Assembly (NCBI RefSeq): GCF_001421015.2
Contig: NZ_CP013023.1
Location: forward strand, 4,457,501-4,521,500
Source: Paenibacillus bovis
GTDB taxonomy: Bacteria; Bacillota; Bacilli; Paenibacillales; Paenibacillaceae
Direction of reading: 5' to 3'
DNA: 64,000 bases
The translations under genes and the position numbers were made by a program. Of the stretch, positions 145 to 16,995 are shown piece by piece; within the stretch, counting starts at the first letter, position 1, and the number at the start of each line of letters is the position of its first letter. The notes beneath the pieces were generated by a model, which worked only from the letters and a program-made list of their open reading frames with translations, was not told where the DNA came from and ran no database searches.

Positions 145-350
145 TTGGAGCATCTTCCTAAGTATCCTTTATGCTTGCCATAGCTACTCTGATGATTCCT
201 TTGTCGGTCCTCTTTTGAGGATGTTTGTTCTAACTATTTGTATCGTACGGATCAATAGAAGGATCGTACATTTATTTCAATTGGATGAAGCGAAGTAAAA
301 AAATATGGTGAATATTACAATATCTATTGTTAATTCAGGAGGTTAAGCGC

Positions 351-1691
351 ATGGCTGGAGAACCGATATTACTGAATCAGGGGCAAAATACCAACCTACC
401 ACCCGGCAGTATGCTGGATGTAATTATTCAATGCAGTGCTGCACCTTCTGCGCTGGATATCAGCTGCTTTATGGTCAATGACGAAGGTAAGGTCCCTTCC
501 GACGAGTATTTTATTTTTTATAATCAGAATGTAGATCCTCACCAATGTGTGCAGCTGGTAGAAGCGAACGAACAGCATTCCCGCTTTCAATTGGATCTGA
601 ACAAACTGCTGCAGACTCCTGTCAGCAAATGCGTATTTACAGCTACCCTGGAGGGTACAGGTACATTCGCTCAGGTGAGCGGTTGCCAGGCAGTATTACA
701 AATAGGCGGACAGCAAATTACATATACCCTATCCGAGGTGACCGCAGAAACGGCACTGATATTGATTGAAGTCTACAAGTATAAAGACAGCTTCAAGGTA
801 CGGGCGATTGGCCGGGGATTTTTCGGTGGATTGCAGCCGCTCGCGGAGTCCTTTGGTGTAGAGATCGAGAGCAGCGATACTTCGCAACCGCAAGCCGAGG
901 CTTCGACGACTGCACCTTCCGTTGCACCGGCAGCAGCTTCCCATCCTTCTGCCGGAATCCCCTCCTCTGCCGCTGCTCCTTCGTCGGCAGCAGAGCCCCC
1001 AGCACCCAAATTAACGACATCGCTAACCAAGATCGATTTGCTTAAAAAGAAAGTCACCCTGTCTCTTCAAAAGAAAAATGTATCGCCGATCCAGGCACGG
1101 GTAGCCGTGGTATTCGATGCTTCCGGTTCCATGTACTCCCTTTACAAAAAAGGGATTGTACAGGAAGCTTTTGAGCGTGTACTGGCGATTGCAGCCGCTT
1201 TTGACGATAATGGTGAACTGGATGTGTGGTTTTTTGCCAAGGACTTTTTGCGTGCACGGAGCGTACGGGCAGAGGATTACGAGAATTATGTAGAACGTGC
1301 CTACAAGCTGGGCAGCAAAGGCGGAACCAATAACGAGCCGCCGGTCATGGAGGATGTTATACGTAAATATACCAAAGAAGAACCCAATGTACGCATCCCT
1401 ACGTATATTATCTTTTTCAGTGACGGTGGTGTCAGCAGTAAGAGCAAAATCGCCAAGCTGATCATCGATAGTTCGCGCTATAATCTGTTCTGGCAGTTTG
1501 TCGGACTGGGTAATGCCAATTATGGTGTACTCCGGGAACTGGATGATCTGAAAGGCCGCTTTGTCGATAACGCGAATTTCTTTGAGCTGGACGATATTTC
1601 CAAAGTCAGCGACGAGGAACTATATGATCGACTGCTCAGCGAATTCCCGAGCTGGATCGAGGAAGCCAGACGCAAAAGTATTCTTGCCTGA
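351..1691 (+). CDS. TerD domain - von Willebrand factor A fusion protein (TerF-like)
   Basis: Predicted cytoplasmic protein of 446 residues. The N-terminal part (about 1-170) resembles the TerD calcium-binding domain of tellurite/stress resistance proteins (opening LLNQGQNTNLPPG). A low-complexity Ala/Pro/Ser linker spans about 175-222. The C-terminal part (about 248-446) is a von Willebrand A domain with a metal-ion-dependent adhesion site: DASGS at 256-260, a GGTNNEPP threonine and an FFSDGG aspartate. The start is ATG 351, because AGGAGGT lies 7 bases upstream; an in-frame TTG at 327 has no ribosome site. TerD/vWA fusions are known from ter clusters, where they are thought to act in calcium-dependent membrane-associated stress complexes. 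The exact role here is unknown. Confidence 0.85.
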   Translation: MAGEPILLNQGQNTNLPPGSMLDVIIQCSAAPSALDISCFMVNDEGKVPSDEYFIFYNQNVDPHQCVQLVEANEQHSRFQLDLNKLLQTPVSKCVFTATLEGTGTFAQVSGCQAVLQIGGQQITYTLSEVTAETALILIEVYKYKDSFKVRAIGRGFFGGLQPLAESFGVEIESSDTSQPQAEASTTAPSVAPAAASHPSAGIPSSAAAPSSAAEPPAPKLTTSLTKIDLLKKKVTLSLQKKNVSPIQARVAVVFDASGSMYSLYKKGIVQEAFERVLAIAAAFDDNGELDVWFFAKDFLRARSVRAEDYENYVERAYKLGSKGGTNNEPPVMEDVIRKYTKEEPNVRIPTYIIFFSDGGVSSKSKIAKLIIDSSRYNLFWQFVGLGNANYGVLRELDDLKGRFVDNANFFELDDISKVSDEELYDRLLSEFPSWIEEARRKSILA

Positions 1692-5301: not shown

Positions 5302-6921
5302 CTATTTTACCGTAATAATCACCCGCTGATAATGTTTGAGGGTATGCGTACCGTTATCCTGAACTTCAGCGATCATATGGATCGTATCACCGGATTTGGC
5401 ATCTTTGGGAATCTGGAATTTGACGGTCGGGGTATTACTGTTTTTCAGCCCTATGGTATTACGCTTCTCGCCTGCCGCAAGCGGACGGTGAATACCCAGC
5501 AGCAGTCCATCTACTGCGTCCTTCTCTTCAGCAGCAGGCTTCACGCGAGAATCATTATACGTATCTGCTTCATAATAACGCCACCAGCGATAACTCAGCT
5601 GGTCGCCATCCGGATCGCTGCCTATCGCATGCAGTGTAATATACTGACCCTGCTTGGCAGTCAGATTCAATCCTTCTTTGACTTTGAGCGTGGGGTTGTG
5701 ATTGGCATCTTTGTATTGTGAAGCAATTGCCCAATCTGCACGGGCTGCAAAATCATTCTGGATATCATCAAACCAGCGCGTTAATGAATACTCCGATTCA
5801 TAGCGGCCAGTATGTACATCATAATCGAGCACATTGTTACGATACAGCTTGTCATTGACCTGACCGAAACGGCCTCCCCAACCGCCATAGCTTGGATTTT
5901 CCATACTGCGCAGTCCGTTATCGATCAAGTAAAAGAACGATGGCGAGTCCCCTTCGGAAATAAAATCATACCGATCATACTGCGGATTGTTCTGCAAATA
6001 GGATCCACTGCCGCGCTGTTCTTCAGCGAGTTCTCCATCGATCATTTTGCCGTCACCCATCAGGGCATACAGATTCAGCAGCGGACCATGATTATGCTGG
6101 ATATTCTCGTAGTTCCATGCACCATGCAGCTTGCTGTTCACAGCTTCGGTATGCATTTTCCAGGCATAAGCAAAGTGCCAGAAGTTCGATTGATCATTGA
6201 TGATACGGATATCCGGCCAATTCTTGGCGATATAATCGTTATAACTGTCGTCTTGGTCCAGGATAATGTACAATACCAGCTTGTCGCTGACTTTCTGCTG
6301 AATAGTGGACCACTGATCCGTTCCTTTATATTGTTCTTCAATCGATTTCAGTGCTCTAGCTGTTGTATTGGTACCGCCCCATGTCTGCACGTACAGATCA
6401 CGCGGGTCATTGTCCAGGAACAGCTTTTTCAGAAATTCGGAACCTTCGGTAACCTGCTCCATCTCTCCCTTGTATGAAATATTGCCAATCTTGATTACGC
6501 TGCGAATATAATCTGGCGTTGGATAACCACCGGCATGCTTGCTCAAGTTGGGATAAGCCTGTGCATAGGCATTGGTCATATCGGTCAACCACTGGGTGCC
6601 GGTCCAGCGATAAGGCTCAATTCCTTTCGCAGGATCACCTGCATAATGATAGACCGAGCTAGTCAATACAATGCCGGCCAGATCCACTTCATTGGCATAC
6701 AGGAAAAAGCGCAGCATCGAGTTCATATCATCTACTTCACCATCATTGGTAATAACCGTTCGTGCTTTCTGCTGCTGAACAGATTGTCCGGCAGCTAACG
6801 AAGCGTTCTTGTTCTCGGCAGGTACTGATGCAGCTATCGCCTGTCCGCTTATACCACTTGTGAGCAGTACACATAGATTCACTGATAATACCATGTTGAC
6901 CCACTTGCTTTTTCTCATCAT
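5302..6921 (-). CDS. Secreted DUF1593 / cellulose-binding Sde182-like protein
   Basis: 539 residues. The signal peptide begins MMRKSKW and has a hydrophobic core and a probable cut near AIAAS (residues 30-32). The body is a nucleoside-hydrolase-like domain (Sde182 type) with an acidic NDGEVDD motif at 59-65, comparable to the metal-binding DxDxxxDD of nucleoside hydrolases. A C-terminal beta-sandwich (about 420-539, with GSDPDGDQLSYRWW) matches the Sde182 C-terminal domain. Family members are linked to polysaccharide-degrading bacteria; the substrate is unknown. The start is ATG 6921 (AAGGGG 5 bases upstream). The in-frame extension to 7074 is rejected because it would run through the antiterminator, terminator and -10 box. 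Expression is probably sugar-controlled through the leader elements at 6979-7106. Confidence 0.85.
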   Translation of the reverse strand: MMRKSKWVNMVLSVNLCVLLTSGISGQAIAASVPAENKNASLAAGQSVQQQKARTVITNDGEVDDMNSMLRFFLYANEVDLAGIVLTSSVYHYAGDPAKGIEPYRWTGTQWLTDMTNAYAQAYPNLSKHAGGYPTPDYIRSVIKIGNISYKGEMEQVTEGSEFLKKLFLDNDPRDLYVQTWGGTNTTARALKSIEEQYKGTDQWSTIQQKVSDKLVLYIILDQDDSYNDYIAKNWPDIRIINDQSNFWHFAYAWKMHTEAVNSKLHGAWNYENIQHNHGPLLNLYALMGDGKMIDGELAEEQRGSGSYLQNNPQYDRYDFISEGDSPSFFYLIDNGLRSMENPSYGGWGGRFGQVNDKLYRNNVLDYDVHTGRYESEYSLTRWFDDIQNDFAARADWAIASQYKDANHNPTLKVKEGLNLTAKQGQYITLHAIGSDPDGDQLSYRWWRYYEADTYNDSRVKPAAEEKDAVDGLLLGIHRPLAAGEKRNTIGLKNSNTPTVKFQIPKDAKSGDTIHMIAEVQDNGTHTLKHYQRVIITVK

Positions 6922-6978
6922 GCTGACCCCTTTTCCCTTTATATACTGGAGGATTGTCTGCCCTTCGGCTATAAACGC

Positions 6979-7034
6979 AAAAAAACCCGGATACCACTGT
7001 GCTCCATAGCATGGAACATAGTCGTACCCAGGTT
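6979..7034 (-). terminator. Conditional terminator in the leader of the DUF1593 gene
   Basis: Minus strand: AACCTGGGTAC pairs over 11 positions (with G-U pairs) with GTATCCGGGTT. An inner CCAT/ATGG stem extends it, and seven T residues follow. Its first four bases are the last four of the antiterminator element at 7031-7059, so the two structures exclude each other. It lies between the promoter (7070-7098) and the gene start. Confidence 0.85.
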
Positions 7035-7059
7035 TTGCCCGCATTCGCAGTAACAATCC
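7031..7059 (-). promoter_or_regulatory. RAT (ribonucleic antiterminator) for a BglG/SacY/LicT-family protein
   Basis: The minus strand reads GGATTGTTACTG, then a short loop region, then GCGGGCAAAACC, 29 bases in all. This matches the RAT of the sacPA, sacB, bglPH and licS transcripts almost exactly; one change in the upper stem gives a U-G pair. In those systems a PTS-controlled antiterminator protein binds the RAT and prevents the overlapping terminator from forming when the inducing sugar is present. No antiterminator protein gene is in this window. Confidence 0.88.
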
Positions 7060-7069
7060 TTTGGCCATT

Positions 7070-7106
7070 ACCATAACATGATAATTTTCGATTGTAAACG
7101 CTTTTA
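7070..7106 (-). promoter_or_regulatory. SigA promoter with overlapping cre-like site, DUF1593 gene
   Basis: Minus strand: -35 TTTACA (7093-7098), 17-base spacer, -10 TATGGT (7070-7075). The RNA would begin just before the RAT. The plus-strand sequence TGTAAACGCTTTTA at 7093-7106 matches the catabolite-responsive element TGWAANCGNTNNCA at all but one defined position and covers the -35 box, as expected for CcpA repression. Confidence 0.7.

Positions 7107-15372: not shown

Positions 15373-16995
<1,623 letters not shown>

Follow-up and report, generated by a model that had tools for sequence, protein, structure and literature searches.

Why should the gene for a secreted protein of the DUF1593/Sde182 family stand behind a leader of the type that governs beta-glucoside operons? 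This is the question posed by the stretch of Paenibacillus bovis DNA analysed here, 64 kb in length and referred to throughout as the window. Our reading, to which we give a probability of about 0.8, is that transcription through the leader is controlled by antitermination of the LicT class and that one of the three LicT/BglP systems of this genome acts on the DUF1593 gene from a distance, the product of the gene serving to trim the decorations of plant beta-glucosides. The regulatory switch is of a known kind; what is new is that DUF1593 acquires a testable role from this switch together with its partners and the gene neighbourhoods.

The leader and the protein that follows it

The first-pass annotation had described a promoter, a cre-like site over the -35 hexamer, a near-canonical ribonucleic antiterminator (RAT) at the 5' end of the RNA, an overlapping terminator and a secreted protein, and all of these were located (Table 1).

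Table 1. Elements of the DUF1593 gene and its leader, in window coordinates
Feature	Position	Strand	Description	Basis
cre (CcpA) site	7106-7093	minus	TAAAAGCGTTTACA, one mismatch to TGWAANCGNTNWCA; covers the -35	
Promoter	7098-7070	minus	-35 TTTACA 7098-7093; 17-nt spacer; -10 TATGGT 7075-7070	
RAT	7060-7030	minus	31 nt, AGGATTGTTACTGCGAATGCGGGCAAAACCT	held-out covariance model
Intrinsic terminator	7036-6979	minus	T-run ends at 6979; overlaps the 3' side of the RAT	folding
Ribosome-binding site	6934-6927	minus	AAAAGGGG	sequence
Secreted Sde182/DUF1593 protein	5302..6918	minus	nucleoside-hydrolase-like domain and C-terminal domain; other in-frame ATG at 6921	

In the promoter scan the -10 hexamer, which is preceded by TG, forms an extended -10, and since the same scan returned only five sites in the region against 6.9 in shuffled sequences, the promoter call rests on position and not on rarity. 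The long terminator is absent from that scan's own output; its hairpin folded alone reaches -33.5 kcal/mol, and the fold of the whole leader has a z score of -5.1, with equally good folds in none of 200 shuffles. The RAT and the terminator are mutually exclusive because the motif AAAACCT belongs to both, and with the RAT fold at about -6.9 to -8 kcal/mol against -37.9 kcal/mol for the terminated leader, read-through should require a protein that holds the RAT. The window RAT is a hairpin with two internal loops; all ten of its pairs are standard, two of them U-G, and one of these two is U-G in every RAT of the alignment described below. The cre site was scored against what we take to be the consensus, TGWAANCGNTNWCA; the pattern alone is not rare (seven matches in the window against 4.2 expected, with 15 of 100 shuffles reaching as many), and the site is credible because it recurs at a similar place in relatives. 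The available text of PMC1489936 places the mapped start of Streptococcus mutans bglP 7 bases downstream of the -10, with a 29-nt RAT following 4 bases further on. The window has the same promoter-to-RAT spacing, from which a start at 7063 is predicted, within the range of 7060-7064 that had been anticipated.

Translation probably begins at 6918 and not at 6921, because an ortholog that is 95% identical (L025) has ATA in place of the first ATG. The protein, whose signal peptide was judged by eye, lies well above the Pfam cut-offs for Sde182_NH-like (239.1 bits, cut-off 26.8) and Sde0182_C (75.6 bits, cut-off 27), and its fold is predicted to be nucleoside-hydrolase-like with the site aspartates conserved. 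Residues D60, D64, D65, T184, N185 and D325 are invariant in all 19 aligned sequences; by analogy with nucleoside hydrolases, these are presumably the calcium and sugar ligands.

It is possible, if somewhat doubtful, that DUF1593 is no enzyme and is instead a carbohydrate-binding or inactive nucleoside-hydrolase-like module that is co-expressed with beta-glucoside genes. Sde_0182 of Saccharophagus degradans (PDB 2YHG), which carries Cys at the position of window T184 and has its nucleoside-hydrolase domain after carbohydrate-binding domains, has, according to the accessible parts of a review, no activity on nucleosides, whether purine or pyrimidine; the binding of a furanose is proposed there, and no activity is assigned (PMC8910321). 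Against a binding module stands the invariance of the six residues in 19 of 19 sequences, and nucleosides may simply be the wrong substrate. A search of the freely accessible literature returned no publication on DUF1593 by name. Two observations on other proteins may be added: in a Gracilibacillus locus (L115, 1961-3812) the DUF1593 ortholog has as neighbours a tandem pair of nucleoside-hydrolase-like genes and another DUF1593 gene (35%), and a protein encoded on the plus strand of the window (327-1691) combines a TerD domain with a TerF-type vWA domain.

Antiterminators of the genome and the favoured inducer

The P. bovis genome (5.5 Mb in two contigs) encodes six antiterminators with a CAT_RBD domain. 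Four of these were scanned, of which three score over the cut-off of the LicT equivalog (NCBIfam) and one, which is SacT-like, scores below it. Each of the three LicT-type genes adjoins a beta-glucoside PTS IIABC gene that is over its own cut-off, in keeping with the bgl/lic/sac type of architecture first suggested for this leader, and the SacT-like gene is grouped with a sucrose-type PTS, levansucrase and GH32. Judged from the list of open reading frames, one of the remaining two is of GlcT type and adjoins a ptsG-like gene, and the other adjoins a different PTS gene. The genome has at least ten RATs at E<=0.01, this being a lower bound from the 150 of 1544 first-pass candidates that were scored. 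Each LicT operon has two and levansucrase has one, and the three that have no antiterminator nearby precede the window gene, a GH1 gene (L019) and the gene of a carboxylesterase whose N-terminus is hydrophobic (L018). The motif GGNNTGTNACTNNNNNNGCNRGCNNNACC occurs nine times in the 5.5-Mb genome at no more than two mismatches, against four for the pattern read backwards, and its six exact matches precede levansucrase, two bgl PTS genes, the carboxylesterase, the GH1 gene and the window gene.

A beta-glucan or sucrose-type inducer had been predicted for this gene. Of that prediction the beta-glucoside part is favoured, because the one RAT that adjoins the sucrose genes differs and orthologs of DUF1593 are found close to bglP, licT and GH1 genes; sucrose is disfavoured, and a polymeric beta-glucan gained no specific support. 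That the window RAT is instead served by the SacT-like antiterminator with sucrose as inducer, DUF1593 then having its place in fructan/sucrose metabolism, appears improbable. The SacT-like gene, the sucrose-type PTS, levansucrase and GH32 are all present in the genome, and one system of Clostridium acetobutylicum answers both cellobiose and sucrose, the available text naming bglT and giving GAGACC in its bgl RAT (PMC12628678). The levansucrase RAT, however, differs in its lower stem, starting GGTGTG and ending AAGACC, whereas the window RAT and five others of the own-genome set end AAACC; moreover, the neighbours in the 80 best DUF1593 loci (see below) match bgl PTS, LicT and GH1, and none has a sucrose PTS as its best match. 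Base differences between RATs had been considered as a rule for telling sucrose from beta-glucoside control, and were reduced to a within-genome hint because the C. acetobutylicum operon with GAGACC responds to both sugars. In the freely accessible literature no publication on antitermination and beta-glucoside in Paenibacillus was found, and those that pair Paenibacillus, antiterminator and LicT looked irrelevant.

Recurrence of the proposed switch in relatives

Since a scan of the whole window with Rfam at gathering thresholds gave no match, and the window RAT scored 27.6 bits with RF03530 (bglG-cis-reg) against a gathering score of 80 and so would not be filed as a member, we built a covariance model (R1) on six RATs from elsewhere in this genome and withheld that of the window. 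Searched with R1, the 64 kb of the window give the withheld RAT a score of 37.3 bits, with an E value of 2.3e-9, and a single further match, of 12.1 bits. Weak matches to miRNA, isrF and rli52 in the window were set aside.

An intact DUF1593 gene is present in seven of the 16 genomes of the genus, among them that of the window, and a RAT of 37-43 bits lies upstream of it in all seven; one further genome, G005 (L031/L032), has a broken gene and a damaged RAT of 17 bits, as if the two were decaying together. A match to PF07632 at E<=0.001 is present in 79 of the 295 genomes sampled from the family, many of these matches being weak and partial. The 30 best-scoring loci were scanned, and 28 bear a RAT, a number that includes five repeats of genus genomes and one RAT (L085) of only 22.8 bits; the two RAT-less loci, L063 and L064, belong to a shorter, divergent DUF1593 class. 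From a scan of GTDB with a 19-member alignment the best 80 of 179 relatives were kept, and RATs were found at 40 of these 80 loci. Of the 40, 34 lie directly before the gene and six (L125, L126, L153, L144, L156 and L171) at the head of a gene row, taken as a single operon from spacing only. Direct RATs occur in all 28 Paenibacillaceae loci among the best 80 and in six further loci, from Clostridium zeae, Bacillus, Neobacillus, Niallia, Salipaludibacillus and Ignavigranum; six of the 34 are weak, with scores of 22-24 bits and E values of 5e-4 to 2e-3, but each of these has its own overlapping terminator. The other 40 loci have no RAT at the gene or at the row head, some contigs ending there. 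A covariance search for RATs before other DUF1593 genes had been put forward as a check on the first-pass annotation, and these counts bear the annotation out.

The RAT alignment (28 sequences, 27 of them distinct, 22 from DUF1593 loci and six from the P. bovis genome) has 97.0% of its stem cells paired and four pairs changed on both sides, which three of 500 shuffles reach, and its covariation score is reached by none of 500 shuffles. In the RAT of Bacillus type the U-A pair at columns 5 and 27 has become A-U. The terminator sequences diverge among relatives, yet pairing is restored in those that were folded. The architecture recurs together with cre: a site with no more than two mismatches is present in 29 of 30 leaders against 8.6% of shuffles, one with no more than one mismatch in 15 of 30 against 0.6%, and the best site lies 38-50 nt upstream of the RAT in 26 of 30. 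These shuffle statistics, like the Fisher statistics, take leaders and genomes as independent though they are related, and the family samples differ in size (295 versus 290 genomes). That RAT, terminator and cre resemble a switch by chance or are a relic, for which the score below threshold with RF03530 is the one point we count, is scarcely credible in view of the held-out RAT score, the recurrence in relatives, the stem covariation and the damaged RAT before the broken gene of G005, which is expected if gene and RAT serve each other.

A second type of RAT, AGGAATGTTACC...GGGCATAACCT, was seen in Bacillus-type leaders (L099, 3893-3919; L101, 2228-2254; L121, 3878-3904; L130, 3774-3800). It has a compensatory pair swap and resembles the consensus of Listeria rli52 in the Rfam output, and rli52 itself may be a RAT.

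Gene neighbours, a tentative substrate and known systems

Neighbouring genes were typed against reference proteins and then clustered, and the counts are lower bounds because antisense open reading frames hid DUF1593 in L139, L149 and L155. Among the 52 loci outside the Paenibacillaceae, GH1 genes are neighbours in at least ten, bgl PTS in at least eight, FGGY kinase and LacI in at least six each, the N and C halves of a split transketolase in at least five each, and carboxylesterase and LicT in at least three each; other neighbour families are limited to three loci each. Carboxylesterase also lies beside DUF1593 in at least five Paenibacillaceae loci. The gene row is licT-bglP-DUF1593-esterase-GH1-GH1 in L125 and L153 and bglP-esterase-DUF1593 in L156, and the neighbouring esterase is 33-43% identical to the L018 protein of P. 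bovis. This carboxylesterase (COest), at E<=1e-100, is present in 26 of 34 family genomes with DUF1593 (one with a broken gene, and divergent classes left out) against 23 of about 256 others. In 20 of the 26 the pair is 2-10 kb apart; none of these 20 is in the window's genus, in which the two genes are 1.5 Mb apart in three genomes and on separate contigs in two. Within the genus, COest at 64% identity or more occurs in five of the seven DUF1593 genomes and in none of the nine others, and all five orthologs have a RAT of their own. A perfect link within the genus was rejected, as six further genomes have homologs of 36% identity, and three of these six lack a DUF1593 gene altogether. The neighbouring genes and the co-occurrence of COest, with its own RATs, link DUF1593 to the beta-glucoside pathway with two accessory enzymes.

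The window itself has a GH1 gene (15373-16995, plus strand, start at about 15562), about 8.5 kb from DUF1593, whose product is 70-74% identical to those of GH1 genes near DUF1593 in L126, L128 and L160. Between it and a divergent LacI gene lies a near-palindrome, TGTAACCCGTTACA (15478-15491), perhaps a LacI operator. In L160 (467-8487, Selenomonadaceae) the row is GH78 rhamnosidase, DUF1593, a metallo-beta-lactamase-fold protein and bgl PTS, GH78 being another sugar-trimming enzyme beside DUF1593.

As to the substrate, beta-D-apiofuranose is a furanose with a cis-2,3-diol, as ribose is, and would suit a nucleoside-hydrolase-like fold. We tentatively suggest that DUF1593/Sde182 might be an unrecognised family of calcium-dependent glycosidases with a nucleoside hydrolase fold that remove beta-D-apiofuranose from apiosylated plant beta-glucosides outside the cell, the carboxylesterase deacylating them and the LicT-RAT switch coupling both steps to import of the freed glucoside through the bgl PTS. 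Apiosidase activity of DUF1593 is plausible. As a lead, apiose is strong in some lineages; for the window it is a guess, and there the gain would come from freeing the beta-glucoside rather than from consuming the apiose. The reference is the D-apiose cluster of Escherichia coli SE15 (aplK, aptA, aptB), for which the available text of PMC13001218 gives gene tags and reports growth on apiose for other Escherichia strains with an SE15-type cluster. Apiose-type genes adjoin DUF1593 in six Bacillota loci, all with an FGGY kinase (34-38% identical to that of SE15) and five with a complete split transketolase, in which AptA is 48-52% and AptB 36-41% identical to SE15. Orthology of the six kinases with AplK was not borne out, since all match GlpK better than AplK. 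In Kluyvera georgiana, AplK, AptB, AptA and the regulator encoded on the DUF1593 contig are 75, 74, 80 and 74% identical to SE15, and aptA lies about 8 kb from DUF1593; the contig also has an isomerase-family open reading frame, a 347-aa PTS-like open reading frame and, adjoining DUF1593, an SE15-like ABC transporter. The same region (L193, 4173-18998) holds, with the D-apiose-type cluster and DUF1593, two proteins of the Apiosidase family (PF13204).

Around AptA in six other DUF1593 genomes, at whatever distance from DUF1593, AptA, AptB and the kinase occur together in all six, an isomerase-family open reading frame in five (the sixth stretch ends there), and a PTS gene with a PF13204 gene in two. 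AptA at 48% identity or more is present in nine of 20 DUF1593 genomes, a count that is biased because the genomes were hand-picked, three of them (L145, L115 and L165) for their neighbours; without these it is six of 17, and three more reach only about 40%. Among 398 Bacilli genomes there is no association, apiose genes being present in two of 16 with DUF1593 (15 of the 16 are Paenibacillaceae) and in 46 of 382 without it (p 1.0). An AptAB-type apiose pathway was rejected for P. bovis, as neither AptA nor AptB nor a split transketolase of AptAB type was found in its genome. The best AptB match there is a 651-aa open frame (31%), followed by weaker ones; this is, we take it, the length of a full-length transketolase. 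Within the genus a clear AptB is present in a single genome, G004, which lacks DUF1593. The P. bovis genome encodes one Pfam Apiosidase-family protein, 29% identical to that of Kluyvera, and in the 12 kb around its gene no PTS, LicT or apiose-type gene was recognised, the exception being a short-chain dehydrogenase that shares 38% identity with one from the SE15 cluster. A search of titles and the beginnings of abstracts in the freely accessible literature gave no bacterial apiosidase of nucleoside-hydrolase-like fold.

The LicT-class switch that we prefer would work as follows, given the mechanism of phosphorylation of LicT and BglP (available text of PMC7430163). Without beta-glucoside, the bgl PTS permease would phosphorylate LicT and the RAT would be left unbound, so that the terminator hairpin would form and transcription would stop near 6979. 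With beta-glucoside and little glucose, active LicT dimers would clamp the RAT and RNA polymerase would read into the DUF1593 gene; with glucose present, CcpA on the cre site would block the promoter. DUF1593, the L018 carboxylesterase and the L019 GH1, each with a RAT and no adjacent antiterminator, would be distant targets together. The secreted DUF1593 protein and the esterase would act outside the cell to strip plant beta-glucosides of furanosyl and acyl groups, and the stripped core glucoside would enter through the PTS and be cut by GH1. Sde182/DUF1593, for which a structure (2YHG) but seemingly no assigned function exists, thereby gains a context, the use of plant beta-glucosides governed by LicT and CcpA, as well as a specific partner in the carboxylesterase and a specific guess at its substrate. 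Targets of LicT in Bacillus subtilis include bglPH and bglS; the LicT regulon would here come to cover, beyond permease and glucosidase, enzymes that do their trimming outside the cell.

Set against the D-apiose cluster of SE15, the DUF1593 gene of Kluyvera shares its contig with homologs that are 74-80% identical, and the kinases nearest DUF1593 in Bacillota are closer to GlpK than to AplK. Set against the LicT-RAT control of bglP in B. subtilis and S. mutans, the window differs in that its target is a DUF1593 protein whose gene has no adjoining antiterminator or PTS gene, but it shares with those systems the promoter, the RAT at the 5' end and the overlapping terminator, and its genome, like theirs, encodes both LicT and the bgl PTS.
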